Below are positions 8,069 to 60,601 of a stretch of DNA of 64,000 nt, in pieces (the stretch's first letter is position 1; every line of letters begins with the position of its first letter). The notes under the pieces are model-generated. The model worked only from the letters and a program-made list of their open reading frames with translations. It made no database searches and was not told where the DNA came from. The translations under genes were made by a program, and so were the position numbers. Source of the stretch: Ascidia mentula (taxonomy: Eukaryota > Chordata > Ascidiacea > Phlebobranchia > Ascidiidae); NCBI GenBank assembly GCA_947561715.1, contig OX387198.1:12462001-12526000 (forward strand), written 5' to 3'.

Positions 8069-10026
8069 TCAACATTTTAGGATTGCATATCTGGTCAGTT
8101 TTCCTTTATGTATCTCCTTAATTATGCCCAGGTGCCTTAATACCAGAAACACATTGTCTTTTGTTTTTCTTTTCAACTTCAACATCTTTCCGTATATTTG
8201 AATATCCTCGTCCACAAAAAATGTCGCGTGGGCAGTTCCTGTAAAACATTCAAACTTGTTAATAATAAACAGGATTACGTTTCAAAATGTAGATTAGTTG
8301 GCATAGTTTCAAGATCGAATAATAGAACCAAGCAAACCTTATCACTCCTGTAACTTCGTAACAATTTCATTTACACTTTTTAAACAGACCTTTAACTTCT
8401 TTAGCCTGTTCCACATAAACAGCCCTCCGCTTGTCTTCTTTCAGTGACAAAGCCTTGCGAGGTCTACTCAGGAACCCATACTTTCCCTTTAGTATTTCAT
8501 TCACCTCATGAACACCGGCATTCATCTGCTCAATCGTCAGGTGTCCTCGGATATGTCTGTTTATATCATTTCACATAATCAAACTGTCATGAAAGTAACA
8601 GTACAAACACTAAACGCAACAAATCATTTTACCTTGGTACTTTGGTGAATTGCGGACTTTTGACTGGATTTAATTGGGGTGTATTTTTATGCCTGCCTAC
8701 CATCGGTACAAAAGCATTTTCCTTGTTATCTAAATTGGGTAAGATAGCAATTGATTTTAGAAAAAGTGTGGGGAATATTATTCCACTGTCTAGTAATACC
8801 ACCAGTTGCATGCTTGGTTGATGGCTCTGGCGAAACTTCTTGTCTGGTGGTAGAGTGTTTTACTGAGTACACCAAAATATCATCAATTTTATCCTTAAAA
8901 TCTGATAGGTTTTCATGGTTCCTCTGCAAAACATATATAAAATAGTGTATAAGCTGCAGACAGATGGCCACTGTTTCGACCTAAAAGGTCTCATCAGTGC
9001 AGCTGGTGATGAGACCTTTTAGGTCGAAACAGTGGCCATCTGTCTGCAGCTTATACACAATTTCATATTATTGGCTCCACATTGCTTATCATATGATTAT
9101 TGTGACACGGGGCCTGACGGCACTATTGGTTGAGCTTGCTTGGCCGTAGTGTTTCCACCTTGTTTGCTCCGTAAGGTTGCACCTAGTTTGGTGCCCAACG
9201 GATAACGGTGACTGTATAGTCACCACAAAGTGGAAGTCTTTGCTTGGCCGCTTGGTCAGCAAAGTCGTTTGATAGTCACACCAGCTGCACTGATGAGACC
9301 TTTTAGGTCGAAACAGTGGCCATCTGTCTGCAGCTTATACACAATTTCATATTATTGGCTCCACATTGCTTATCATATGATTATTGTGACACGGGGCCTG
9401 ACGGCACTATTGGTTGAGCTTGCTTGGCCGTAGTGTTTCCACCTTGTTTGCTCCGTAAGGTTGCACCTAGTTTGGTGCCCAACGGATGACGGTGACTGTA
9501 TAGTCACCACAAAGTGGAAGTCTTTGCTTGGCCGCTTGGTCAGCAAAGTCGTTTGATAGTCACACCAGCTGCACTGATGAGACCTTTTAGGTCGAAACAG
9601 TGGCCATCTGTCTGCAGCTTATACACAATTTCATATTATTGGCTCCACATTGCTTATCATATATAAAATATTCTGCATTATTATTACACACAAAGAGCAA
9701 CACAATCAAGGAAAAAAGTTATATACAAAAAAATAAAAAACAGTGGTATGCAGTATAGGTGAGGTGATGTAGTATACAACCTAGCATCAACATTTGAAAC
9801 AAACCTTTAGTGTGTTAACTTCTTCTTGCCCCGCTGTTATTGCACTTTTCAACATTTCCAAAATGTTTTTGAGTTCTTGAACTTTTGTTTGAAAGTTTCG
9901 GAGTTCGGCACAACCCTCAGGGTACGCCAGTAATGGTTGCAACATAAGCATTTGCTCGATGGTATCCAATTTCTCTTCAAACTGCTTTTCAAATTTTGAC
10001 ATACTACTGGCACTTGGACCAGCCAT
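8069..10026 (-). CDS. SKA1: SKA1, spindle and kinetochore-associated complex subunit 1
   Basis: Part of the Ska complex, which couples kinetochores to microtubules in mitosis. Minus-strand exons in order: 10026-9805, 8923-8803, 8729-8633, 8556-8390 and 8238-8069; phases fit throughout, giving 258 residues (human 255). The N-terminal 75 residues form the helical dimerisation segment (KFEKQFEEKLDTIEQML, NFQTKVQELKNILEML). A low-complexity linker follows. The C-terminal microtubule-binding winged-helix domain is recognisable from VPRHIRGHLTIEQMNAGV through KYGFLSRPRKAL to the end HKGKLTRYAILKC, compared with human GGGLTRYVIT. The join of exons 2 and 3 (a 73-base intron) is the least certain. Intron 1 (8924-9804) contains the hammerhead repeat block. 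Identification rests on remembered human sequence; the family evolves fast, but both ends fit. Confidence 0.87.
8932..8944. repeat. Target-site duplication, left copy
   Basis: catatataaaata, identical to 9658-9670, directly flanks the hammerhead element. The match is AT-rich, but it is exact and sits at the point where similarity to the repeat family stops. Confidence 0.7.
8952..9004 (-). ncRNA. Hammerhead ribozyme, type I, complete core (sense to SKA1)
   Basis: Read on the minus strand: stem I AGCTGCA (9004-8998), CTGATGA, stem II GACC/GGTC with loop TTTTA, GAA, stem III ACAG/CTGT with a 7-base loop, cleavage C at 8959, and stem I partner TGCAGCT (8958-8952). All conserved core positions are present. 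It lies in the same direction as SKA1, so it would be transcribed within intron 1 of the pre-mRNA. Activity is not shown by sequence alone. Confidence 0.8.
9006..9051 (+). ncRNA. Hammerhead ribozyme core with truncated stem I
   Basis: First plus-strand core of the array, fused to the opposing minus-strand copy. The 5' side of stem I is replaced by the junction and the first core base is G instead of C (GTGATGA). Stem II, GAA, stem III and the 3' stem I strand are intact. It is probably not self-cleaving by itself. Confidence 0.7.
9283..9335 (+). ncRNA. Hammerhead ribozyme, type I, complete core
   Basis: AGCTGCA 9283-9289 pairs with TGCAGCT 9329-9335 (stem I, 7 bp). CTGATGA is at 9290-9296, stem II GACC/GGTC at 9297-9309, GAA at 9310-9312, and stem III ACAG/CTGT encloses TGGCCAT. 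Predicted self-cleavage falls after C9328. With the next copy this would release a 284-nt unit RNA, 9329-9612. Confidence 0.83.
9567..9619 (+). ncRNA. Hammerhead ribozyme, type I, complete core
   Basis: Base-for-base repeat of the core 284 bases upstream, with the same stems and a cleavage C at 9612. It is followed by about 40 bases of the next monomer before the right target duplication. Confidence 0.83.
9658..9670. repeat. Target-site duplication, right copy
   Basis: Identical to 8932-8944. It follows the partial last monomer, which ends in ttgcttat. Confidence 0.7.
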
Positions 10027-18320: not shown

Positions 18321-21300
18321 TTAATCTACCTTATAAAAACCACTAGACCCGCCGTCTTTCATTGTAAGTTGAACGTCAGTGATAACAGTCTCCCGATCTA
18401 TCGCTTTACACATATCGTACACAGTTAAGGCAGCCACAGTAACCCCGGTAAGTGCCTCCATCTCCACCCCAGTTCGATCAGCAGTCGCAGCCAGTCCCTC
18501 TATTGCCACCACGCGGTCGCTTTGATCCAACACAAGCTTGATTTCGATGCGTGTGAGCGCCACCTGATGGCAGAGTGGTATTAAGGACGAGCAACGCTTG
18601 GCGGCCATTATACCAGCGATTTTAGCCACTCCCAAGACATCGCCTTTGGATACGGCGTTGTCAGCGACCGCTTGAAATGCGGCGTCGCTTAGGCGGACTT
18701 TCGCTGTTGCCACGGCGACCCGCTTGCTGATTGGCTTGTGGGAAACGTCAACCATGGAAGCCTTGCCCTCGTCGTCAACGTGTGTCAGTTTGGCGGAGGG
18801 TGTCGCGCGTGAAACGCGGAAGAATCTGACGGATTGATGAGAACAGTTGGGTGGGCTGAGCGCGGAGATGTTAGTGAGCGATTTAAAAAAGTTGTCTGCA
18901 GGCGGTGAAGGCGATAAAGTAGATGAAGAGGAACCTGAATAAATATGTAACATTCGTCATTTATTTTGCCTTAAAACTATCCCAAAAGTCATATTTGTAT
19001 CCCGACTATCACGATTGGCTTTATTTCCAGTTGGGTTTCGTTCGTCTGTTCGGTGGTCCCTCGCTATTCTATAGTTAATTATGCGTTGGAGCCTGAGAAT
19101 GACCGTTTTAATGTGATGAAACTTAAAAAAAAAGTTTATTTTAAAAAAAGCCCCAATCTATGCACACTTTTGATGCGACTAAGTTTTCATTGGAAAAAGG
19201 ATACCGAAGTCCCATAACATTTTGTGCATGGTGCCTTTACCGCAATCAAGTACCTGTAACAAGAGGGGTTCACCCACCGATCAAAATCATAGGTCGGTTT
19301 TTCATCTGGGCCAGATTGAACATTCCTGTTGGACAAAACACAGCGTCAACAATGCACTGTGCCATTTTACAGCCAATTTACGGACAATTTATGGAGAAGG
19401 TTGCTTTGTCGCAAGACCTTTTTTTATGACCCCGCCATATGGTCCACACTGATTGTAAAAGCAAATTAAGTGCCAAGCGGGTGGGGCAATTTAGGAAGCA
19501 ACGGCGTTATTGAAATTGTTGAAATTGTCCTACACCAGTGATTTTCAACCGGTGTTCCGCGGAACACCAGTGCTCCGTGAAAGATCCTGAGGTGTTCTGC
19601 AAGAAATTTATTAGTTTGACTGATGTTCCGTTGAACACGGTTCGAAAATCTTTTTTTATGAAAGTAATCATCCGTCATCACCAGTTTAAATGTTCCATTG
19701 TTGTGAAACAATATGATTCGTTTTGTAATAATAAGAATGTAATTGCGCAAGCCTATTGCTGGTTAAGTACAATGCCGCGCAGTACTTCCAACAATTTGGT
19801 GTTCCGCAAGATTATTTTGTTAAAAATAGTGTTCCGTGGCTCAAAAACGTGAAAAAATACTGTCCTACACACATCATGTAATAATGTTAAAACTAAAATC
19901 AATAGAAGACACGCAAGTGGTGGACTGGCATGCTTCTGGCGTCATTAACACTGCTCTGTGTTTTGCTTTTCACATTTTTATGCTATAGTTCACGTTAAAT
20001 GATTAATGAAATACAAGGCTGCTAAGTGCAAGACAGACTACGGTGACGGTCAATGACGTCATAATTGGGTTTTGTGGTCTTTTACCTGCGTGCTGTTTCT
20101 TCTTCCGTTTCACAGCGGCACCGATTATTTCCATCAACTGCTCGTCGTCCTTTCCTGACCTCAGTTCGTCACGCAGTGAAACCTCGCTGTTCCCGAACAA
20201 ACAGACCTGACAAACATACGTTGTTACGTCACAAACAGGAGATGCAGAATACATTTTGGCACAATTTGAAAAGGGTTCGCCAGCAAGGTTGACGATACAG
20301 ATACTATGCAAAACTTAAATTGGTAAAATGAGGGTTTGTATGTCCTTTTATAATTGTAATATGTACATTGTACATAACAGCAGAGTCGAATTAAATGCAT
20401 TTCAAAAATGTATCCAATCACGCCGCATTTTAACGCTGCCCAAAGCGCTTTCAACGCAACGGCCACCTTTACAGCTGTGTTGACCACCAGAAAACACTGT
20501 ATTTCTCCATTAACATAAAATCTGTAAAATGAGCAGTATCCGCGTACGATCAACTCGGTAGCACGGGAAGTACCGACCGTGTTTAAGCTTTTCGAAGTAA
20601 GCGTAAAATTGCGGGTTACGCAGAGGGTCAAAAAGTTAATGATAAATAATAACTAGCTATACCGTGGAGGTATTTCGGAGAAATATCTCTTCCACAGCTG
20701 TGTTCCATTAAAGTGGACTTTATTGTGGTCCAAAAATGGCAAAACGGGTGCGTTTTAATTAAAGTTGGTTCAAAATTTCTGCAACAGCTTTTCAACTTAT
20801 TGTGAAACAAAAATATATTAAACCAATTTAGAATGTAAAGTTTTGCACAGCAAGATCAAATATTTTTTCTTGTGCGCAAGATTTAAAATATGCCAGCAAT
20901 AAAAAAATTTCTCTACATATAAAAAAAATACCTTCAGGTTGCCGTCGGCTGTTATGCGGAGTCGGTTGCACGTGCCACAAAAATGGTTGGACATGGAGGT
21001 GATAAAACCGAACTGCCCGGCGAAACCTTCCACTTTGTAACCCTAAATTGTAACAAAGATGTTTATTGCCGCTTGTACTCTCATATACTCGCTTAAAGGG
21101 AATTATTTCCGACAAAAATTGGGTTGAAAACGACCAAGTGAGAACGAAAAACAACAATGTGTTTTTTCGTGCTCTTTTAACTTTTTGACATTTTTTGTAG
21201 CTTCGGAGAGTTTTCATTGGTGAAACAGAACAAGAGGGTAAATGTGTGCATGAACAATGAACTGGCGGGTTGGAAATCAAACAACAAAACCTGAATGAAA

Positions 21301-30300: not shown

Positions 30301-33300
30301 CGTTTCGTATTAGTGGTCCCGCCATATCTCACAGCTTGATCGGGACATCAGGACTTAGGTGCGTTCGACGTCAAGCTCTTTTCGGGAACCGACGCCATTT
30401 TCCGCGAATCCGCGGCAAGCCCGTGCGGGCAGAAGCTTTCGCGGGAAGCGGGAGAAAAACATGTTTGATTGACAAGAGCCCGGATCGGTCTCCGATAACT
30501 TCTACGTTTTTTGGATAATGTGCGAAAATGTCGCAAGACCCTTTATTAAGTTAATCCATGACGCTACGGGCAGCCAAATGGCACATCAGCAATAGTATGA
30601 AAGATTTTTGCTGGATGTACGGCATAGGCAAGTACATTGTTCGCATTTAAACGTGCGCTCATTGGAAAAAACACGCTCACACAAATACGTATATTTAAAC
30701 GAGACAAAAAGAACTTTTTAGGTTGTTTAACGTCATGAAATACCATAAATATTGTTTCTTTTTGAATAAAACAACAAGGAACTTTCAAATTGTCAAAAAG
30801 GCAACAGTATATTTCTTTTTTCCGCTTGTCTTTTAACGACCAATGCTCTGCGTGTGGCCTCGGTGGCCGTAATAAAAATGGCTTTTAATCGAATCAAGGA
30901 ATGTATTCAAAAAATGTCAACTCAATTACGTGTGGCGCCCACAGATTTTTCCGCCCACAAAATTTTTCAGGATTCTTTAAATATGGAGATTAATCTCTTC
31001 GCCCGTTTTTTCCCGACCGCAACGGCACGAATACAAATGGGACAAACAACACTATCTTCGATCCCCACCACGTGTTTGCATTGATCGTCTATTTTCGGCC
31101 ATTGTTGAAGCCCGGCGCCACAGGGTTTACAGGGAAATTATAAACGAATTCACACCACAGATGTAAAAGCAAATATTAAAGTCAGTGAATTTTAAAAAAA
31201 ATCCTTTAATAGTTCAAAAGAAAAGAGTAGGTCTGGCTGGCAGATGTTACTAAACCTGGTTTTCTTTACAAATAAAGCCGCCACAAGAAAACCAAAAAAA
31301 CAAACAAATCATTTTTTTCCGCCTTGTGTCAACACAAAATTGCCCAGTTAATTTTTTCACAGCTGTTTTGGCAAAGTTTGACAGATGGCTGTAACAACAA
31401 AAACTACCAAATTATGAACAGTTCAATCAAGTTGTCAATCCCATATGCTACCAAATCCATACCAGAAACGCATAGTTCGTGGCTGTTAGAACGTATTGTA
31501 AACATGGTGTTTGTACATAAGAGTAAGTGATTACTTCCTGTGTTCCAACATGTTGAAAACTGAGCCAATTATTTTCCCAAATGATACAGCCAACAGCTGT
31601 AAACTGTGTGTATGGTGCGACCCGAACAACATTCGTTCATATAGCTTGGTTTAAATAGTTTAGCATGAAACATTGGGCCCAATTTCGTACAAACCCCAAG
31701 AACATATATCAAAACTTAAGGATAAAAAAGACACGCATTAATCTTATCCATCCCTGTGTTATATCGCATGTATGCGGAGGTTTTTGGCCGCCTGTTACAT
31801 GTGATAACACACTGATTACTACGGGTTTTTATGACATTCTTACTTTGCAAACTTGCGATTTTAGACGTACGTATAGAACTAGGTAAAAAAAAATAATTTT
31901 GATTGTGATTAAATGATGGGTCGCCCAAATGAGTTTTCGCTGGAAAGATTGCTCACCATCGAACGGCATGTACTCAATAAATCTGACGTCAACTTTGAGG
32001 TCTCTCGTCAACTGAACGAAGTCGCAAATTTCGTCTTCGTTTACTCCGTTCATCACCACGCAGTTTATCTGCAAATAAATTACAATTAATAAATTTACAT
32101 TATCTAATCGGGTACTAAGCGGGTCAATTACACAAGTGGAACGTCATTGCGTTGAACTACTCGAATGTGCTATTAAATGACAGAATATTTTGAATGATGT
32201 ATCTGATGTTTAAATATGATTTCAAAATTCGCTTTCCAGCTTAAGAAAAGAAATTTTGATCAGAAAGCATGTGGCGTCGCACATTGCGATTTTGGCATAG
32301 ACGAATGAAATGTTTGAGTTGTTTTTGCTGTTACGCGTTTTAAGGATGTAACCTTGCACTTGTTTACAAAGGAAGGTCAGCTTCACACCCATCACTGCAT
32401 GCAAACAACACTGCCATTGTATCCACCTTTTTAAGGCACGCCACCGACGAAGTTTCTCAGAACTGGAAAAAACGAGAGGAGAAAATCTCCAAACGCGCAA
32501 AGTAACGAATTTTCAATTATCGAGCGGGCAATCTGGCGCCGTCGCCACGAAATCGCGGGCAGTCGCAGGCCAAAAGAATTTTCTAGAACACGCTATGGGT
32601 CGCGGAACGCGCAAAGTTGGGACAAAACTGCAAAAACAGGTAAACAATTCGCCGCACGCCATCTGTGCCCTGCAGTTAATTCCTAAAACTGGAGCGTTTG
32701 GCTCGAAGCAAAGGGCACGCGTTAGAGATTAGATGACGGTTACAGGTTGGGCAACGTAAACTGCAAGGCCTAATAGAACCGATTTCACGCAGCTAGTGAC
32801 GAGAAGGCGTTGTCTTGTTCGGTGTTCTCAGAAAACCTGGACGCATTTTCGCCGCCAAGTTCGGCGCGACTTAATTTAACGAAAATACCCGATTTCGTCG
32901 CCGCCGAAAATGTGCCATCTCATAGTGCCTGGTATGTTTGAGAAAAAAACAGCAACAAAAATGCGTTGCATCCTATGCAGGTCGAAGAAAAGAACAGGCA
33001 ATGACTGTGAAGTAGTAATTGATGTTTATTTAAATTGTCCAATTTAATGTCTGCTAATTAAACATGTCCCATGTTACCAATAATGCTGGGTTATTGCTTC
33101 CCATTTCCTAAAACAGGGCAAAAAACGAACAGGCTGCAATGGCGCAGTGGGTGAACACCCTTTAAAGTTACTGTTTTTATGTAATTATCTGAGCAGCATT
33201 AAAAGAACATTTACAACACACCACAATATTTTAGTGAGTGATTAGGAATGGACCCTTTACCGATATATACATAAATAAAATACTCACCTTTACTGGAGAA

Positions 33301-34288
33301 AAACCCATGTCCACTGCCATTTTAATGCCTTTAATCACGCGTTCCCAGCCTCTGTGTCTAGTTATCAGCTCAAATCGTGTCGGATTCAATGTGTCCAGGC
33401 TAATGTTCAATGAATCAAGACCGGCCACTTTAAGGTCTTTCAGTTTTCGTGGGAGTGTTAGCCCATTAGTTGTCATGCCAATGCTCTCCAAGTTTCCGTT
33501 TGGTGTTCTCATGGCATTTAACTCAGCTGCAAAAATATGGTGAATTCGAGAGTTTGCAGCTTTGTCTTGAAAACAAAATTTATTCAAACTTACTTATGAT
33601 ATCACAGAGGTCCCTTCGAACCAGTGGTTCTCCACCAGTCAATCGAATTTTCTTGACACCTTCTTGGACAAAAAGTCTGGACAGTTTGATTATCTCTTCA
33701 GTTGAAAGTAGTCGCTCACGAGGTGTCAGCTGGATTCCCTCTGCTGGCATGCAATACTTGCCTGTATTACAAAAATTATATCAATATTAATGTAAACATA
33801 GTACATTTATAACCAAAAAATTGATTGCTTACAGTTAAAATTTTGATCACAATAAAAAATTCACTAAATCGTATGACAACAAACTATATATACATGTAAA
33901 TAAATATGTATTATGCTCAAGGGAGAAAAGAAAAACAAAGACTGCTTACATCTTAAATTGCATTTCTCTGTCAATGAAATCCTTAGATATGAATGCTGAC
34001 GGTCAAAGTTGTCGACAAGGAAATGTGAAAATGGCAGAGGTTCTTCGATCAAGCGTTCCCTCAAATTCACAACTCTCTGTTTCGGCTTTTCCACTGGCGG
34101 AGAACGTTCTTCAGGCTTAAAAACAAAAAATTCTGATTTAACAAACAAATTAACACATATCATGCTGATTCATGAACTCATATTAAACACAAGCAATCTA
34201 CCAGTGGTTCAAGGGATGCAGCTGTCACGTGACCAAGTCTCTGTTCAATAGATGCAAAAATGGCTGAAGGTTTCAAAAACCTCGCCAT
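18321..34288 (-). CDS. MOCS1: MOCS1, molybdenum cofactor synthesis protein 1 (MoaA-MoaC fusion)
   Basis: Converts GTP to cyclic pyranopterin monophosphate, the first step of molybdenum cofactor synthesis, in mitochondria. Nine minus-strand exons: 34288-34202, 34115-33950, 33761-33594, 33526-33288, 32068-31957, 29137-29025, 21042-20932, 20206-20086 and 18934-18321; all phases agree, 576 residues (human 636). The N-terminus ([13 protein letters not shown]) looks like a mitochondrial presequence. MoaA radical-SAM motif CNLRCKYC, then [18 protein letters not shown], and the C-terminal cluster FCGTCNRLR...VC. The last exon adds a linker and MoaC ([36 protein letters not shown]). The CNLRC motif is split by an intron. 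Intron 7 is about 8 kb. No separate MoaA end with Gly-Gly is seen, so only a fused product is apparent. Confidence 0.95.
19536..19862. mobile_element. hAT-like non-autonomous element, 327 bp
   Basis: Starts CAGTGATTTTCAACC and ends in a related inverted sequence (ACGTGAAAAAATACTG). Exact 8-bp target duplication tcctacac at 19528-19535 and 19863-19870. It carries repeated TGTTCCG boxes near both ends and no transposase. It lies in MOCS1 intron 8. Confidence 0.78.
22453..22584 (+). repeat. Hammerhead-family repeat copy with interrupted core
   Basis: Has the family body (AGAGCCATAATAATCAAACCG, GTACCACAAAGTGGAAA), stem I AGCTGCA at 22546 and TGCAGCT at 22578-22584, and CTGATGAGAC. The GGTCGAAACAG segment is missing, so the ribozyme cannot fold. 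It belongs to the same subfamily as 57586-57719. Confidence 0.65.
23943..24149 (+). repeat. Partial hammerhead-family monomer, 3' truncated at the core
   Basis: Follows the 284-bp monomer from TAACACGGAGCCTG through TTGCTTGGCC, GTGTTTCCACCTT and CACCACAAAGTG to GGCTGCACTGATGAGA, then diverges. It is a diverged copy of the units at 9007-9574. Confidence 0.65.
27975..28146 (+). repeat. Partial hammerhead-family monomer lacking the ribozyme
   Basis: Similar to the monomer interior (TGTCACGGAACCTGACGGCAC, CCTAGTTTGGTGCCCAACGG, TAGTCACCACAAAG, TTTGCTTGGCCG). It stops before the stem I and core region. Confidence 0.6.
28829..28950 (+). repeat. Decayed head-to-head hammerhead pair
   Basis: Starts with a minus-strand half (AGCTGCAGACAGGG at 28861), then a plus-strand core: GACGAGACC, TAAC, GGGTCGAAACAG, and stem III ending CTGTC at about 28946. 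The order minus then plus is the same as at 8945-9051. Core positions are mutated. The left flank AGCCAATAACG with TTTATAGTGAGC is shared with the 6028 copy. Confidence 0.55.
29138..31956. other. MOCS1 intron 5, no coding exon seen
   Basis: 2.8 kb. The longest frame, 157 residues at 29363-29836, shows no known family and no splice partner. I see no RNA gene. Confidence 0.5.
32069..33287. other. MOCS1 intron 4, nothing recognised
   Basis: 1.2 kb, with patches of higher GC at 32.5-32.9 kb but no coding or repeat feature I can support. Confidence 0.5.
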
Positions 34289-40700: not shown

Positions 40701-43700
40701 AGTAGGTTGGACTGTATTGTAGCAGCAAATCACTATGGAAGAAAATAGGGAAGAACAGTTCCAAGCGTTGCAGCGTTCTTTACAGGAATCGTATATCCGT
40801 ACAGAACGTTTAATGGTTAGCCCAGAAAACTTGTCTGCAGTCCTGAGCTCTGTACAAGTTACAAACGAAAGATACAAGCTTCTTGCGAATCATTTTAATG
40901 GGGATGACATTGATGAGTCTTCATGGGATTTAATTAAACGACTGGCTGCTGAAAAACAGGAGTTTGACGTCCGGGTTGATGATTGGACAGAGAAAACCCG
41001 GTCTGCTTCACCTTTGCTTTTCGCCAGGACTTCAAACAAATCTTCAGGAAGTAGAGCTTCAAGTTGTCCTTCATCAGCAAGTAGGAGTTCGAGCGTGAAG
41101 AGAACCGAGGCTCGAATTAAGGCGGAGATAGCTCGCGCAAAGCTTCGCCAGACGAAAGAAAGGCAGAAGGAAGAAGTACGACGCGCTGAGGAGCAGAAGA
41201 TGCGAGAAAAAGAGAGAAAATTGAGAAACGACGCTGAAGTTAGTGAAGCGCAACGTGAAGCCGAGTTGGCTGAAATTGAAGCCCGTTGCTGGGAAGATGG
41301 ATTTGGTCATGATGACGTTTGTTCACCCTCGCCGATGCAGGTTATGCAAACAGTGGTTGAGCGTTTAAACCCTTCTCCGAATTTTGAAATGCAAGACCCT
41401 TCAAAAGTAAGTCGTTTGCCTGATGATGGCAATAATTTTCAGTGTGACCTAAAAAGTACGGAATTTCCCGCCCGCGTACATGAAGCGCGTTGCAGCTTGG
41501 ACGAACGTTTTCTGCCTCGTCCGAAAATAATGACCTTCAATGGTGATCCCATGGAATATTGGACGTTCATTCGTAACTTCGAAGCACATGTTGCTACTAA
41601 GGTTCATTCAGAAGAGTTGCGTTTGGTTTATCTACTGCAACATTGTGATGATAAACTGCGATTAAAAATTGATCACTTAACAAAAAGACCTGTCGAGGGT
41701 TACCGTCAGGCCCGTCAAAAGCTTTTTCAGGAGTACGGACAGCCCCACATTATTGCAAATGGTTGTGAGCAGCATCTCAAGAAGAGTCCTCGTTTAAAGG
41801 GTGATCAACCCGAGAGGCTGATGCAATTTGCAGACTTGCTGGAAAAGTGCCTTTCTACGTTGGATGACATCAATGAATATGCGGGTTTGAACTCACTCGA
41901 TACGATGTTGCAGCTGATTGATAAGTTGCCTCACCGCTTACGGGAACGGTGGATTGAACGATCGGTTGAAGTTCTCCATCAAACCGGTCGCGAAGCCATG
42001 TTTAAACATTTTGTTCAGTTCGTTTTGGAACGTGCCGAGGTGGAGAATTCTCTTTACGGTTGTAGGATTATGGGATCTAGACGTGACAAGGAGTTCGTTC
42101 AGCCTCTTAAGAAAGACCAAGGCAGTTGCGTACGCTGTTAACCCGATAGAAGTTCAGCAGCGTCCAATGGAAAGGTCATCGCCCTCCGAATCCTGTCAGT
42201 TCTGCGGAAAATTACATGACTTAGCAAAGTGCTTTGACTTCAGGCGCAAAACGTACTCCGAACGAATAGAGTTCGTTAGCCGAAAAAAAATGTGCTTCAG
42301 ATGTCTTGCTCCGGGACATCGCGTTCGAAGATGCAAGGCACAGACCGCTTGCGAGGAAAAGAGTTGTTCGAGTCACTACCATCATACCTTGTTGCACAAG
42401 TGCGTCCCCAATGTGAAGCCGGAGACTCCAGCATCGTCACTACCAGAGAAGGTTGCTACCTGCTCAGTGATAACACCTTCCACTGATGAAGATTGTTCGG
42501 GCGACGTGTATCAGTGCGTAGTTCCGGTCCAAGTGAAATACAAGGGCCGAAAGATTTTGCCTTACGCGTTTTTGGATATCGGGATCTACTGGAACCTTTT
42601 GTTGCCAAAGGTTAATCGACACTTTGGGTATGGAAGGTGAAGCAAAGGGGATTGTTCTGCAAACCCTCTCCGATGACGCTAGAGAGCATGCGGTGTTTCA
42701 GTGAGTTTCGCTGTTTTCCATGTGGGTGGTGGAGAGGAGATAGTTCTCCAGAAGGTAATATCCGTTGATGAGATTCCAGTACGACCCAATCTTGTTTTCA
42801 CTCCCAAACATCTGTTTGGCATACCACATTTACGCAACATAAATTTTCCATCGATCGAGGGAGGTACCGTAACACTTTTAATTGGTTTGGATAATCCGGA
42901 CGCGCTGTTCATCCAGGAAATGCGTCGAGGTCCAAAGGGAAAACCGTTTGCTGTCAAAACACCCTTTGGATGGACACTGTTTGGTCCGTCACTGTTTCCG
43001 TCTGCTTCATCGAAATGTCCGGTGAACTTTATTAAATCACGCGATAGTTGTTTACAAAAGCAGATATCTAGCCTGTGGGAGACGGATTCCGGAAGCGAAA
43101 CTACCGTGCTGGATTTTCCTACGACCCGGGAAGATAGGAAATCGTACGAGATTATGCGAAGCAACGTGACGAGCGTGGAAGGTCACTACGAGCTGCCGTT
43201 ACTTTGGAGAGAGAGTTCTGTCTGTTTGCCGGATAACAAACCCATGGCTGGAAGACGATTGGAATACCTGAAGAGACGTTTGGGGACAGATGACCGACTC
43301 AAGGAAAAGTACGTGGCTACTATGCAATCCTATATTGACAATGGGTACGCAAGAGAAGTACCCAAAGACGAAGTTCATTCATGTAATGGTGTTTGTTGGT
43401 ACTTACCACATCACCCTGTTCTTCATCCCCGTAAATCAGACGAGGTTCGTGTGGTTTTTGATTGTGCTGCAAAATATAACGGGGTTTCCCTTAATGATGT
43501 ACTAATGCAGGGCCCGGATCTTGTAAATAATTTGGTGGTTGTTTTAACTCGATTTCGCAGAGAACGGTTCGCATTGGTGTCCGATATAGAGTCAATGTTC
43601 CACCAGATTCGTGTTACACGAAAGGATAGATATGCTTTGAGATTTTTGTGGTGGCCCGATGGGGATCTGGCCAAGGGACCCACGGAACACCAAATAACTG

Positions 43701-46700
43701 TGCATCTGTTTGGGGCGACTTCATCGCCAAGTTGCGCGAGTTTTTGCTTAAGGCAAACGGCTATTGATTTTGGCCACAACTTCGATACACATGCATCGTC
43801 GGTGGTAAGAAGAAATTTTTACGTGGATGACTGTTTAACGTCAGTTGCATCAACAGCGGAAGGAATTCGATTGACGAAGCAGCTTACGGATCTACTTTCT
43901 CACGGAGGGTTTCATTTAACTAAATGGCTCAGTAACAACCCGTCGATTCTGTCTGAGATTCCCGAAGAGGAAAGGTCAAAGGTCGTGCGGAACAGAAGGT
44001 TCGGCGATGACGTCACGGAAAGAGTGCTTGGTGTGCACTGGGATGTGGACGAGGATACATTTGGATTTAAGATCAATCTTCCCGAAACACCGATGACGCG
44101 TCGAGGGATTCTTTCTGCCTTGAGTTCACTGTACGACCCTCTTGGGTTTGTTGCGCCTTGTACATTAGGAGCCAAACTATTACTTCAAGACTTGTGTAAG
44201 CGTGGACTCCGCTGGGATGATTGCATCTTGGAATCAGAAGCCACGCAGTGGAAGAATTGACTAAGTCATTTGACAAAACTTCATGACCTGCGAATTCCTC
44301 GGTGTTTTAAGCCGTTAGGTTTCAGTGAGGTGAAATGTTGGGAATTGCATCACTTTGCGGATGCTTCATCCGTTGCCTATGGAGCCGTGTGTTACCTGAG
44401 GTTAGTCAACGTTGATTCGCGTGTTCACTGTGTGTTTCTTGTTGGCAAGTGTCGTTTGGCACCGCTAAAAACGGTGTCGATTCCTTGATGTAATGATGCG
44501 GCGAGAACTTGATCTTGGGACATGTCGGTCTGTGTTTTGGACAGACTCCACAGCTGTGCTCCAGAGCATTATCAATTCGAAGAAGCGATTTCTTACATTT
44601 GTTGCCAATCGAATTGCAAAGATTGAAAGGCAAAGTGATTTATCAAGTTGGAGACACGTTCCATCGAAGCTCAATCCTGCGGACGAAGCTTCCCGAGGGT
44701 TGACGGTCGAAACGTTGGTGACGTCAGGGCGCTGGTTACACGGCCCCAAGTTCTTGTTGGAGTCCGAGGATCACTGGCCTGTCAGCCCTATCGTACTACC
44801 AGACTTACCTGCTGAGTTCGTTTCCGAAAAAAAACAGGAGGTGTCCATTCATTTGATTGTGGAAAAGCAATCCATTGTTGACCGGATTATTAATCGATAT
44901 TCTTCTCTAAATCGTTTAAAAAAGAGCGTCGCATGGCTGCTTCGATATAAGCAGTTTTTTCTGTCGCGCATTCGGCGTGACAAAGTGCCCGTGGAGAAAT
45001 GTGACGTATCGGTTGAGGAATTGGATGCTGCCGAATTGGCGTTGATTAAGCACGTACAACGAGGACACTTCGTCGCCGAGTTTGCGGCTTTGGAAAAGGG
45101 CTCACATGCGAAGACCTCTTTAAAACGACACATGTTCGAATTGAACTCTGTAGTTGTTGATTCTGTACTACGTGTTGGTGGTCGGTTGGAAAGGGCACCA
45201 ATCCCGAACGATGCCAAACATCCGATAATCCTGCCGCATTCATCTCATTTTTACTGATTTAATTATTGCAAGACATCATCGCCTTGTCGGACATTCTGGA
45301 ATGGGACATACCTGGTCGTCGTTGCGCCAGAGGTTTTGGATAATCAAAGGTGGAGTTGCCGTACGCCGAGTGATCGGAAATTGCTTGTTCTGCAAGAGAC
45401 GAAATGCTTCCGTTGGTGTGCAGATAATGGCCGATCTGCCTTCGGCAAGACTACATCCCGACGAGCCGCCGTTTGCACATGTCGGCGTTGACTACTTTGG
45501 CCCCTTTTCTGTTAAGCAGGGGCGAAGCATCGTCAAACGGTATGGGGCAGTGTTTACCTGTCTAACAGTACGGGCTGTTCATATTGAAGTTGCTCACAGC
45601 CTTTCAACTGACTCATTTATCGACGCGCTTCGTCGATTTGTTGGTCGTCGTGGAAATCCAGTCCACATTTACTCCGACAACGGAACAAATTTCGTTGGTG
45701 CGGAACGGATTTTGAGGGAATCGTTGCAGTCGTGGAACTGTTCACAAATCGATGAGTACCGGAAGCAGAGAAACATTCGTTGGTCGTTCAATCCTCCGAC
45801 CGCCAGTCATATGGGTGGTGCGTGGGAAAGAATGGTACGGTCCATCCGGCGAATCCTGACGTCTTTGATGACTCAGCAAGTTGTCTCTGACGAGACATTG
45901 GCTACGCTATTCGTCGAGGTTGAGTCCATAATTAATTCGCGTCCTCTTGTTCCGGTGACGTTTGACCCTCGAGATGACGAACCTATCACACCCAACAATC
46001 TATTGCTAATGAGACCGAATGCGAGCCTACCTCCCGGTTTGTTCGATAAAAAGGACTGCTACGTGCGGCGCCGTTGGGCACATGTCCAATACTTGGCGAA
46101 CCAATTCTGGATTCGCTGGGTACGGGAATATTTACCAAATATCATCTCCAGACAGAAGTGGTTCCAGAAGAAGAGAGACCTCCAGATCAATGACGTGGTT
46201 CTCATTGTGGATGATTCACAGCCACGGTCTAAGTGGTTAATGGGTCGAGTTGCGGATACGTTCCCGGATAAAACTGGAACTGTGCGCTAGGTGCTCGTGC
46301 AAACGCGACACAACTGTGTCAAACGACCGATTGCAAAACTATGTTTGATTGTCGCCGCGAATAGCGATGTTTAATGTGCTGAGCTATTTCATGATTCGTA
46401 ATTTCGTTGTTGAACGTTCGATGTTTGTGTTGCGAAATGTATTTCCTGGGTCATACATTTGGGGGGGGGGGTATGTTACATCTCCACGTCATTTATAGTG
46501 ACGAAACAATGACCACTATGCGTAACACTTCGTTTCGAATGACATTGTTTCTTGGTAGTGATTAGTTTGCTTGTTTGCTGCGTCTGCGTGCTTGAAGGGT
46601 GAAATAGTTTGTGTCAGTAAAATTGTTTGTTTACCCCTTACAGGAGACAGTTTTGGCTTAAATAGTAATGTCATTTGAATAAGCTGTTATTAGAAAACGT

Positions 46701-54003: not shown

Positions 54004-54392
54004 GTTAACTGTGTCACTGGGCTAACTCTTACACTAGGAAATACACAGATTTTCAACCCATTGAATACACTAGTTTTTTTCAATTTTTTTGTCTTTTTGC
54101 TTCTCTTTGTAGTCTATTTCAATTGTTTAAAAGGCACTAAAATACTTTTATCAAAATATGCCATGTAGGCTACCGTCTGTTCAAAATAGGTAAAAATTTT
54201 TAATCAAAGACTGTTAAAACTTCATTATTTATGTTTCCAGATAAAATATGGCTGCATCTGAGTAAGTTACGATGATATTTACTTTTTATAATTATTTTAA
54301 ATCAAAGCTTAGAAATAAACTAAAAGAAATATATACAGTAACAATAGTTATCTGTTAACCACTGATATATATGTAATACTGATTGCAACAGA

Positions 54393-55671
54393 ATGTCTTC
54401 TTTCCCACATTCACGATTTTCACCTGGTCAAGAACTGACACAGGGATCAGAGACACAAGAACCACAAATTCCACTATTACAAGAACCACAAATTCAACCA
54501 TTACAAGAACCCCAAATGCAACCATTGCAAGAACCACAAATTCAACCATTGCAAGAACCACAACATCAACAATTGGAAGAACCACAGCATCAACAATTGC
54601 AAGAACCACAACATCAACAATTGCAAGAACCACAACATCAACAATTGCAAGGACCACAGCATCAACCACAACGCCAACCAGTGCAAGACCCACAACAGCC
54701 TGAGCAGAGACAACTACTACAGCAATTACTAGGGATGCCATTGGATGACCTGCAACGACTGTTGCAACAGGTGCAACAACCCAACCTCGATCGAATTATT
54801 ATCGATATTCATCATTTAGAGCTTCAAGGCCTTCCAGCTCGTATGTTTGGTATAGGTGGAGCCATGGCTGGAGCATGTATGATATATAAACTGGCAAGCA
54901 GTGAGAGATTTGTTGATGCAATCTGTGATTCAATAAAAGCAGTGTCCGGGGCTATCGTGAGACGCATTACGGAAGGTAGCATAAAGTTGGAAGTGCTTGC
55001 TGAAACAAAAGAAATTTCCAATTGCCTTGTTGAAGCTTGCAAGTCGGGTAAGCTTGTAAAAGATTTAAATCAACGAATTTCAGCATGTGGAAGTGATACA
55101 AATGAAATCGTCTATGGGTTTGATGATATAAAAGTTATTGCAACAACAAGTATTGAAATTAATTCTTTGGATTTGGAAAAGGAGAAGATACAGTCAGGGA
55201 AAAATATTGAAAAATTTAAACAGGAACTGGCAAGGAGATTTGAAGTGAGTTGTTTCTTGTTTTGCTTACAGGGTGTGCTTCCATACATTTACCTTCACTG
55301 CAAAACGTTATAACATCACAATAATTCTTAAAAAAACTAATGCATTTTTTTCTCATACATTTTTTTGTCTCTAAAACTACTAAACACTTTTTTATTTCTA
55401 GGAATCCCAAGAAATGAAAAGTGCTTCATTAACTCCAGGAGGAATACAACTTTCAGACAAATTGAAAGCAGAGAACCAAGGTAAAGAGTCACGAAAAAGT
55501 CCATCTGGCCAAGAAATTGTTCAACAGACACAACAGATGTTCAAAGGAGAGGCACTTCTAACAACAAAATTGAAAGAAAATCCAAAAGGCGTCTTTCAAT
55601 TAGTGCAGGATTATCGATTATACCACAGTGTGATTGCGAACGAGATGCTCAAATCCTTAGGCTGGATCTGA
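54393..55671 (+). CDS. Unrecognised Q/P-rich protein, paralogue A
   Basis: I do not recognise this family. Two exons, 54393-55244 and 55402-55671, phase 0 join, 373 residues. Residues 1-110 are low complexity, with eight 8-residue repeats of the type LQEPQHQQ (about 28-91). Residues 115-145 are leucine-rich. A glycine-rich hydrophobic segment follows at about 150-167 (FGIGGAMAGACMIYKLA), a possible membrane anchor. The rest is soluble and charged (IVRRITEGSIKLEV, EACKSGKLVKDLNQR) and ends NEMLKSLGWI. Paralogue B, 4.9 kb downstream, keeps the frame, the intron position and most of the sequence outside the repeats, which argues for a real, constrained gene. The ATG follows directly after a CAG that could be a trans-splice acceptor. 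Retaining the intron would add 22 residues and a stop, also conserved in B. Confidence 0.75.
54474..54665 (+). repeat. In-frame 24-bp minisatellite, eight units
   Basis: Eight units of 24 bp encode the Q/E/P octapeptides of paralogue A. The array is disorganised and shorter in paralogue B, so it probably varies in length between individuals. Confidence 0.8.
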
Positions 55672-57370: not shown

Positions 57371-57514
57371 TATGGCCAAACGGATCTGCTTGGTAACCGA
57401 TAGTGCAAAAGGCAAAAACACCAATGTAATATATGTGCAAAAAAGGCCATATTATTGCAAGGTGTTTTTGCCTTTTGCACTATCGGTTACCAAGCAAAAG
57501 ATCCGTTTGGCCAT
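57371..57514. mobile_element. TA-flanked foldback element, 144 bp
   Basis: The left arm from TATGGCCAAACGGATC pairs with the right arm ending GATCCGTTTGGCCATA. The arms are about 52 and 54 bases and nearly perfect, around a loop of about 38 bases. TA at both ends suggests a Tc1/mariner-type MITE. Confidence 0.72.
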
Positions 57515-57585
57515 AGTGCGCTCTACAGTGGTTCGTCTTCTCTGTTGTTTGGTACTAAGTATAGGGTACCCTGCAGATCGACGTT

Positions 57586-57719
57586 GACCGAAAGGTACCA
57601 CAAAGTGGAGACTAGTGTGCCTGCTAGTGTAAAAGCTAGCACAGTGCCACTTAACAGCTGCACTGACGAGACCTTACAGGTCGAAACAGTGCGTGTGCAC
57701 ACCCTGTCTGCAGCTTTGT
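57586..57719 (+). repeat. Hammerhead-family repeat, second subfamily
   Basis: Starts GACCGAAAGGTACCACAAAG, includes an inner hairpin (CTGCTAGT...AGCTAGCA), and ends with the complete ribozyme described at 57656-57715. The nearest copy is 22453-22584. Confidence 0.7.
57656..57715 (+). ncRNA. Hammerhead ribozyme, type I, complete core
   Basis: Stem I AGCTGCA/TGCAGCT, core CTGACGA (the variable position 7 is C), stem II GACC/GGTC with loop TTACA, GAA, stem III ACAG/CTGT enclosing a longer, self-complementary GTGTGCACAC loop, and a cleavage C at 57708. All invariant positions are present. Confidence 0.78.
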
Positions 57720-58476
57720 AACATAATCTTGTTCGGCAATTATGTATTCGTACATATGCGAATGTCTGTACGAGTATAAGAGAATGAACTGCAGAGTGTG
57801 AGTATATAATAGTGCGCTAGATTATATCAAATATATTGTACCTTATCGTATCTGGTGCAGAGAAATGTGGTGGCTTATGAAGTGGCAAAGAAAAAAATGA
57901 CGTTTTTAAGAAGCATCAAGAGTTTTTTACGCAATAGATGTTATCTGCAGTGAAGGGTTTAGCTTGGTCATTACTAAAACAAAAGAAAAGTGCAAAAAAT
58001 AATAAATTGCCAGCAAGGGCTTTAATAAAACAATTTACATGAGGCAACAGGCTGACGGTGTGGGTGTGCGGTTACATTAAACCACAGGTAAATATTTTAC
58101 AGAAAATCGAAATAATTCTGCAATGTGTAATCTCGAGACGCTACAGAGGAAAAAACACATTGTCAATGACTTGTGTCTACATGTTAATACAGTAATCATA
58201 TATCGGTTTGACCAGTTCACTTTTTAATTTTTTTTAATTTTATTGGTAAAAAGGCCAAGTTTCGACCTCGGAAAACGCAAAGCCATATGCGTCAAGAGTT
58301 TTATAAATTGGGGTTTCCCCTTTATAAAGTTTCAGTTCCTTTTTCGGTTCCTTTTTTGCGCAGAAGCAGATACAAAATTCAACTGACGTTTGGTATTTGT
58401 TACTGCCAGACATTTTGATATTGCATCTTTGGCCAAAGACCATTTATTGTAATAATAGTTTGGACGTTAACGTTTG

Positions 58477-58815: not shown

Positions 58816-59318
58816 CATATTTCCAATTTGTTGCCCCTTTCGGTCAACGTGTATGGGTGTATCCGTTGGGTACCCAACTGCTGTGCTTCGCATGTTTTAA
58901 TAAAAAATTCCTACCTAAACTAGTGAATTATCAGCCAATGTACACCTGCAGCATTGCGAAATAAGACTCATTAAAGATGTGAAGTCCTGATCATATCCAC
59001 CTCTATGTATGTGTTTTTAAATTTTTTATTCTTGATTTTCTTTGAAGTCTATTTGAAATCGATAAAAGGCACTAAAATATTTTTTTTCAAAATGTGCCAT
59101 GTACCATCTGTTCAATAATGGGTAAAAATTTTTAAATCAAGGAGTGTAAAAGTTCATTATTTATGTTCCCAGATACAATGTGGCTGCATGTCCAAAGCTT
59201 ATATTTACATTTCATAATTATTTTTATTTAAAGCTTAGAAATTAACTAAAAAAAATATATAGAGTAGCAACAGTTATCTGTTAACCACTGGTATATGTGT
59301 AATACTGATTGCAACAAT

Positions 59319-60601
59319 ATGTCTTCTTTCCCACTTCCACGATTTTCGCCTGAGCAAGACCTGGCACAGGGACCAGAGATACAAGAACCAGCACACCAAC
59401 CATTGCAAGCACCACAACATCAACCACCACATCCATCACTGCAAGAACCACCACATCAACTACTGCAAGAACTACACGGTCAACCAGTGCAACACTATCC
59501 ACTGTTGCAGCCTGAGCACAGACAACTTCTACTGCAATTACTAAGGATTCCACCAGGTGACCTGCCACGACTATTGCAGCCCTACCAAAATCGAGTTCTT
59601 ATCGATAATCATCATATGGAGCTTTTTGGCTTTCCAGCATGTGCATTTGGTATAGCTGGAGGCATGGCTGGGGCATATATGATATATAAACTGGCAAACA
59701 GTGAGAAATTTGTTGATGCAATCTGTGATTCAATAACAGCAGTGTCTGGGGCAATCGTGAGACGCATCACAAAAGGTAGCATAAAGTTGGAAGTGATTGC
59801 TGAAACAAAAGAAATTTCAAATTGCCTTGTTGAAGCTTGCAAGTCTGGCAAGCTTGTGAAAGATTTAAATCAACGGATTTCGGCATGTGGAAGTGATACA
59901 AATGAAATGGTCTATGAGTTTGATGATGTACAAATTATTGCCACTACAAGTATTGAGATCACTTCCGAGGATTTGGAAAAGGAGAAGATACAGTCAAGGA
60001 AAAATATTGAAGAATTTAAACATGAACTGGTAAAGAGATTTGAAGTGAGTTGTTTCTTGTTTTGCTTCCAGGGTGTGCTTCCATACATTCACCTTCACTG
60101 CAAAACGTTATAACATGTTAGCAAATTTTTCTCAAATAATGCATATTTTTCTAAACAATAATTCTTAAAAACAACTAATGCATTTTTTTCTTTCCATTTT
60201 TTGTCTCTGAAACTACTGAAAAACTTTTTTATTTCTAGAAATCCCAAGAAATGAAAAGTGCTTCATTAACTCCAGAAGGAACACAACTTTCAGACAAATT
60301 GAAAGCAGAGAACCAAGGTAAAGAGTCACGAAAAAGTCCATCTGAACAAGAAATTGTTCAACAGATACAACAGATGTTCAAAGGGGAGGCACGTCTAAAA
60401 ACAAAATTGAAAGAAGATCCAAAATTAGAACGTCAGTTCAAACGCTTCTTGCAATTAGTGCAGGATTATCGATCAAACCACAGATGGTTTGCGAACGAGA
60501 TACTCAAATCCTTAGGCTGGGCACCTGAAATTAAAAAAACAAAATCCACTTCCTTGTTTATACAACCAGAATTCATAATAAATGATTGCATAAACACTTA
60601 A
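59319..60601 (+). CDS. Unrecognised Q/P-rich protein, paralogue B
   Basis: Paralogue of the gene at 54393. Exons 59319-60044 and 60239-60601, same phase 0 intron, 362 residues. The N-terminal repeat region is shorter and irregular (HQPLQAPQHQPP, LQEPPHQLLQE). The hydrophobic segment FGIAGGMAGAYMIYKLA and the block SNCLVEACKSGKLVKDLNQR are nearly unchanged from A. Exon 2 keeps an ERQFKR stretch missing in A, and the C-terminus extends past LKSLGW by about 30 residues. Retaining the intron gives almost the same 22-residue ending as in A. Function is unknown; the possible membrane segment and Q-rich head are the only clues. Confidence 0.74.

Follow-up and report, generated by a model that had tools for sequence, protein, structure and literature searches.

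A two-armed hammerhead retrozyme whose insertions end like those of Penelope-like elements

The hammerhead repeats of animal genomes were first known as satellite DNA, and the machinery that moves animal retrozymes, either long interspersed nuclear elements (LINEs) or Penelope-like elements (PLEs), was left open by Cervera and de la Pena in 2020 (PMC7229834) and again in a review of December 2024 (PMC11722881). The typical structure of PLEs has been given as an inverted terminal repeat, a target duplication and a 31-bp 'tail' at one end, and their enzymes are described as moving other sequences in trans (Arkhipova 2013, PMC3846280). When purified, one PLE protein was able to cut and extend both target strands; its reverse transcription begins at two neighbouring positions inside the RNA, for the most part within an AC-rich stem-loop, and the stretch between both start sites forms the genomic tail, a feature termed unique to PLEs (Frangieh 2024, PMC11167929). 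In the present work a metazoan retrozyme without long terminal repeats (non-LTR) is described at positions 8932-9670 of the window, that is, the whole 64,000-nt stretch of DNA that was analysed (G000:C2:12462001-12526000, in a 195.8-Mb assembly of 79 contigs), and its putative circular RNA is probably copied into both strands of the target by a PLE protein.

The element consists of two divergent arms between the copies of a target-site duplication of 13 bp, the left one (CATATATAAAATA, 8932-8944) being identical to the right one (9658-9670). The inverted arm on the minus strand (8945-9008, 64 nt) is a partial unit, 97% complementary to the plus-strand sequence as seen in the inverted repeats I1-I3, and is followed by a plus-strand arm (9007-9657) of 2.3 head-to-tail units of 284 nt, the two arms overlapping where they meet. 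Tandem Repeats Finder (TRF), run on the window, reported a period of 284, 2.3 copies and 99% matches at 9007-9662, and the full units at this locus differ by a single base, at position 9204. Complete type I hammerheads lie on the plus strand at 9284-9334 and 9568-9618, with predicted cleavage at 9328/9329 and 9612/9613, and on the minus strand from 9003 to 8953, the 51 nt of the latter being identical to both plus-strand copies. The cores at 9290 and 9574 have all invariant hammerhead positions; at 9006, where the core falls on the arm junction, C3 is consequently replaced by G. The initial annotation, made from the sequence alone, had correctly recognised the 284-nt tandem units, two cores with every invariant position and the exact 13-bp flanking repeat. 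Its picture of a simple tandem array holds for the head-to-tail plus arm and fails for the left 64 nt, which are inverted and contain a third complete hammerhead that had been overlooked.

Judged by its invariant positions and three stems, each unit carries a canonical type I hammerhead. The 51-nt motif has CUGAUGA, GAAA and, as cleavage triplet, GUC; its stem I (GCUGCA/UGCAGC) measures 6 bp, stem II 5 bp and stem III, which bears a 7-nt loop, 4 bp. With the core held unpaired, the best computed fold of the copy at 9284-9334 was the three-way hammerhead junction (-16.6 kcal/mol); the unconstrained calculation preferred over it another structure, which pairs part of the core (-18.0 kcal/mol). 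A genome search found 731 copies of the exact 27-nt core and none of its reversed control; for the looser pattern CTGATGAN{8,26}GAAACAG the counts were 2616 and 12, so the hammerhead is far more frequent than expected by chance. In the 40 loci introduced below, a search at fixed spacing that tolerated as many as 10 mismatches found 131 motifs, of which 113 match the window hammerhead exactly, and the ribozyme therefore seems to be retained. Self-cleavage would release a 284-nt RNA (plus strand, 9329-9612), numbered U1-U284 from the nucleotide directly after the predicted cleavage site.

The predicted unit RNA folds with -101.5 kcal/mol (z -3.71; one of 200 shuffles equally stable) and contains on the plus strand a stem-loop at 9336-9392 of -13.9 kcal/mol (z -3.84; none of 200 shuffles equally stable), with the loop UCCACAUU. 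The GC content of the unit is 47.5%, and the longest stop-free run across repeated units is 81 aa. As no longer frame exists, neither a reverse transcriptase (RT) nor a GIY-YIG endonuclease is encoded, and the unit is therefore not itself a PLE. Its size falls within the range of about 150-450 bp of metazoan non-LTR retrozymes, with which it also agrees in the hammerhead, the tandem units, a GC content below 50%, the lack of coding capacity, a duplication of more than 4 bp and a self-paired RNA.

A genome-wide search with the 284-nt unit, suggested in the initial annotation, revealed dispersed copies, with at least 190 matches (best 40 of 2015 candidates). The 40 best-scoring loci (L009-L048, L048 being the window copy) are spread over nine contigs of 15.4-27.9 Mb. 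Two arms, with the minus arm left and the plus arm right, were found in 29 of them and other arrangements in 11, L033 being more complex than the rest of these; the segments measure 0.1-5.9 units (median 1.35, n=73). The same polarity was seen in all nine pairs of retrozyme cores lying on opposite strands within 1.5 kb, among 100 places listed of 731. Exact direct repeats of 10 nt or more flank 33 of the 40 loci, with a mode of 12 and a range of 10-16 nt (12 nt in 19 loci, 13 in seven, 14 in four, and 10, 15 and 16 in one each), and pairing the ends of different loci gave such a repeat in 18 of 2000 cases. L021 and L022 have common flanks and a common duplication, and probably represent one insertion event copied later.

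With L022 left out, 32 loci had a repeat of at least 10 nt and 27 of these were two-armed. All but one of the 27 (L019) combine one near end (U12-34 as aligned) with one far end (U36-60), within limits chosen after the ends were seen, the near end being left in 12 loci and right in 14. In the window copy the inverted arm has the near end (about U14) and the plus arm the far end (about U45). Once the duplication is set apart, most ends read ..GCTTATACACAA and ..CTCCACATTGCTT(AT). Of the five remaining repeat-bearing loci, L009, L018, L021 and L028 end near and L032 ends far; since four of five end near, the near site may be the usual first start and the far site the second. The start sites deduced from the insertion ends, near at about U16 and far at about U43-46, both fall inside the single stem-loop at 9336-9392. 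The pattern expected of a PLE-type tail, two alternative ends about 30-40 bp apart with one at each end of the insertion, was thus found in 26 of 27 loci, and the retrozyme inserts like a PLE without being one.

A second retrozyme family, whose exact core has 541 occurrences in the genome against 0 for the control, was viewed at 12 loci. L085 and L094 have a 12-nt repeat and near and far ends of a like kind; by the same method the other ten showed no such repeat. The window itself holds a second retrozyme core, one of the TTACA family (CTGACGAGACCTTACAGGTCGAAACAG), at 57663 on the plus strand, in an older rearranged copy (57387-57735). There a 36-nt perfect inverted repeat (57387-57422 and 57461-57496) encloses 38 nt that by eye resemble the tail of the TTACA family.

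For the target site, the 19 loci whose duplication is exactly 12 nt were compared, each turned so that its near end lies left. The left flank has A at -3 in 18 of the 19, A at -2 in 17 and C at -1 in 14, and the right flank has G at +12 in nine and T at +13, +14 and +15 in 14, 13 and 13, respectively; the full AAAC and the full GTTT are each present in seven. In 1000 random sets no column carried more than 1.21 bits (mean of maxima 0.43), a value surpassed by the left columns -3 (1.26 bits) and -1 (1.48 bits) and not reached by the right columns (0.35-0.64 bits), the right half being the weaker. Targets lean to AAAC-N12-GTTT, which is its own reverse complement, as expected if a single enzyme cuts both strands alike.

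Alignment of 70 full units gave identities of 99.74% within one arm (37 pairs), 99.83% between opposite arms of a single insertion (23 pairs) and 97.84% between loci (2354 pairs). The 15 loci with at least two full units contain 18 variable columns, 17 of them with a letter that is private to the locus within this sample; the remaining column (L030) also segregates between loci, as 16 columns do overall. The higher identity within insertions and the private nature of 17 of the 18 changes indicate one template per insertion, and such uniform units fit reverse transcription round one circle. At the inner junctions (n=30) the arms overlap by 1-21 ambiguous bases in 23 cases, abut in two and are gapped in five, which suggests joining via microhomology, with the proviso that one or two overlapping bases can arise by chance.

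PLEs are abundant in the same genome, where GIY-YIG (PF01541) gave at least 121 matches (best 150 of 382 candidates), and two of these frames, of 801 and 892 aa, match both RVT_1 and GIY-YIG above cut-off. Head-to-head pairs of PLE ends have a direct repeat in 11 of 11 cases (12 nt in six, 13 in three, 14 and 15 in one each), and one arm extends 28-65 nt past the other, 28-44 nt in ten of the 11. Among 110 mismatched pairs, two shared 10 nt or more. In a further PLE (L061), inspection by eye gave an offset of about 45 and a repeat of 12 nt. Family C, one of four PLE families (A-D), was also studied as a set of short loci, made up of 16 of the 23 head-to-head pairs of PLE-C tags: the repeat measures 10-15 nt in 15 of the 16, exactly 12 in seven, and is lacking in L100; of 240 mismatched pairs, three reached a length of 10 nt. 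In those 15 loci the two arms stop at different distances past the tag, one at 2-7 nt and the other at 31-38 nt. Opposite-strand neighbours within 5 kb stand minus then plus for GIY-YIG (17 of 17) and for the PLE-C tags (23 of 23). In families A, C and D the duplication is preceded by C in eight of nine cases and followed by G in eight of nine; family B has neither in three of three. A strict hammerhead pattern in L049-L062 had two matches, in L050 and L053, and the PLE-B motif CTGAAGAAGCCT..AGGCGAAACGTC was recognised by eye only.

Miniature PLE insertions are represented by six elements of 167-177 bp (L097, L098, L101, L107, L108 and L109), in each of which two PLE-C ends stand back to back and are accompanied by a target duplication (12-15 nt). 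L059 and L060 (G000:C67:6132000-6149200) belong to a PLE array with a 12-nt flanking repeat; its GIY-YIG frames, of 559-892 aa, occupy two units on the minus strand and three on the plus strand, spaced at 2870 bp. L062 (G000:C69:12189000-12196000) is a PLE-B copy within a 138-bp satellite array, with an end repeat of about 12-13 nt by eye.

Copying of the retrozyme by PLE machinery is proposed because divergent arms, duplications of about 12 bp and the near/far offset are common to the retrozyme and the PLEs of this genome, and because the tail has been termed unique to PLEs (PMC11167929). Movement by the machinery of another element, as foreseen in the initial annotation, is well supported by the dispersed copies, the target-site duplications and the one template sequence per insertion; that this machinery can be named Penelope-like would follow from the comparison of ends. 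The transcript of an older copy would cleave itself at its hammerheads, and the 284-nt unit would be ligated into a circle. The RT/GIY-YIG protein of a PLE would then act in trans, probably as a dimer, and would cut both strands with a 12-nt stagger at a site like AAAC-N12-GTTT, in keeping with the observed motif and duplication. Each freed 3' end would prime in the same stem-loop, one near U16 and the other about 28 nt further 3', where the insertion ends are found, and each copy would travel round the circle 0.1-5.9 times. Joining of the two antisense copies, often by short microhomology, would give the product that is seen, divergent tandem arms with a 12-bp duplication. The reaction might further be an obligate two-site one, in which a symmetric endonuclease pair uses one near and one far start on the same RNA circle and both strands are extended at once; this version is tentative and, in our estimation, falls just short of being probable. 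It would explain why near plus near or far plus far pairs were not seen and, if true, would make double-strand-primed copying of circular RNA the general route by which animal retrozymes spread.

Several observations weigh against this reading. The covariance-model search that the initial annotation proposed as a check did not support the hammerhead: Rfam gave 0 matches on the window at gathering scores, without a positive control of its sensitivity, and no hammerhead match on six loci at E<=0.1. In a search of 1.4 kb at E<=10 none of the three motifs reached the Hammerhead_3 cut-off of 48.5 bits: both plus-strand copies scored 18.9 bits (E 0.71 each), and the minus-strand copy, matched across a long insert, 29.9 bits (E 0.00056). 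Stem II showed no covariation in 34 distinct 27-nt cores taken from the listed matches of the loose pattern, 145 of 170 cells being paired against a shuffle mean of 145.6. The 40 loci, taken from the best-scoring candidates, are the closest relatives of the window unit and not a random sample, and seven of them lack a clear duplication (L013, L020, L023, L024, L033, L040 and L042), a count that includes misses of the caller such as L020, which by eye has a 12-nt repeat. None of the four PLE families has the retrozyme's own ends, and the short PLE-C loci fit the target motif only partly (C in 8 of 15, G in 7 of 15). As to the published PLE system (PMC11167929), the hammerhead is reported as dispensable for insertion in vitro, start sites were not seen to differ between the top and bottom strands, and the preferred target is 5'-ATT-3' rather than AAAC-N12-GTTT.

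The dispensable hammerhead (PMC11167929) also agrees with a variant in which the element and the PLE machinery are the same and the template is an uncleaved linear multimer from a tandem donor, with no circle; a uniform donor array would likewise yield uniform copies. We consider this variant unlikely, given that within an insertion every full unit, whichever arm it lies in, resembles a copy of a single sequence, that the arms reach 5.9 units at a median segment of 1.35, and that 113 of 131 hammerheads are unchanged, as if the ribozyme were kept. Much less probable still is mobilisation by a LINE via twin priming, which also yields inverted 5' parts and target duplications. Twin priming fixes the 3' end alone, its second, internal priming site being variable, whereas both outer ends of the retrozyme fall in narrow zones 28 nt apart, one in each in 26 of 27 loci; the duplication is mostly exactly 12 nt, and the PLEs of the genome are alike in a comparison that covered PLEs and had no LINE control. 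Ordinary satellite DNA, made by local tandem duplication and recombination, would account for the tandem structure and recalls how animal hammerhead repeats were first known (PMC7229834), and it can be virtually dismissed, being contradicted by the flanking duplications in 33 of 40 loci and the common target motif, with copies on nine contigs instead of the local duplication without target duplications that the initial annotation had set against its own reading.

The retrozyme insertions examined bear the end signature described as unique to PLEs, and PLE genes with long open frames are present in the genome, so that purified protein would allow a direct test of the question of the mobiliser. 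PLE integration is further constrained by the one-near-one-far rule and the leaning to AAAC-N12-GTTT, neither of which was found in the part of the literature surveyed. For RNA-templated gene insertion, a reaction that uses both strands and a circular template would be of interest.

Elsewhere in the window, 40723-46290 holds a Pao-like LTR retrotransposon in several frames, with DUF1759, Pao peptidase A17, integrase zinc-binding and DUF5641 domains above cut-off and RVT_1 and rve below it. Molybdenum-cofactor genes are represented on the minus strand by a MoaC domain and a radical-SAM exon (18321-18956 and 33231-33593), which lie about 15 kb apart and are perhaps one MOCS1-like gene. Two similar frames at 54366-55313 and 59268-60113 begin with proline/glutamine-rich repeats, and the first had no Pfam match at E<=0.001. 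A tRNA scan of the window with bacterial settings found none. The GH6 domain in animals is a tunicate trait, and two genome matches to it (E 9.2e-6 and 1.1e-4) lend weak support to the tunicate-like genome suggested in the initial annotation.

In comparison with known systems, the element resembles the metazoan non-LTR retrozymes in its type I hammerhead, tandem repeats (170-400 nt in that group), lack of LTRs, low GC content, duplications of more than 4 bp and predicted highly paired unit RNA, and differs from them, as described in the cited part of the same source, in its two divergent arms, fixed near and far ends and palindromic target motif (PMC7229834). It is a retrozyme, and its two-armed, tailed architecture is a variant of which a partial survey of the retrozyme and PLE literature gave no earlier description of either divergent arms or tail. 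With the plant LTR retrozymes it has in common a non-autonomous nature and a hammerhead-processed circular RNA, the latter putative here; the plant elements differ by type III hammerheads placed in LTRs, a primer-binding site, 4-bp duplications and probable mobilisation by Gypsy elements (PMC7761336, PMC7229834). The likeness to PLEs comprises the inverted terminal part, the target duplication, an optional tail of about 30-40 bp on one end, tandem copies, the hammerhead and reverse transcription from two adjacent internal sites (PMC3846280, PMC11167929). PLEs encode RT and GIY-YIG, whereas the retrozyme encodes nothing, and the published PLEs have duplications of 8-10 bp in A. vaga and a preference for ATT in A. 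carolinensis, in contrast to the 12 bp and AAAC-N12-GTTT found here.
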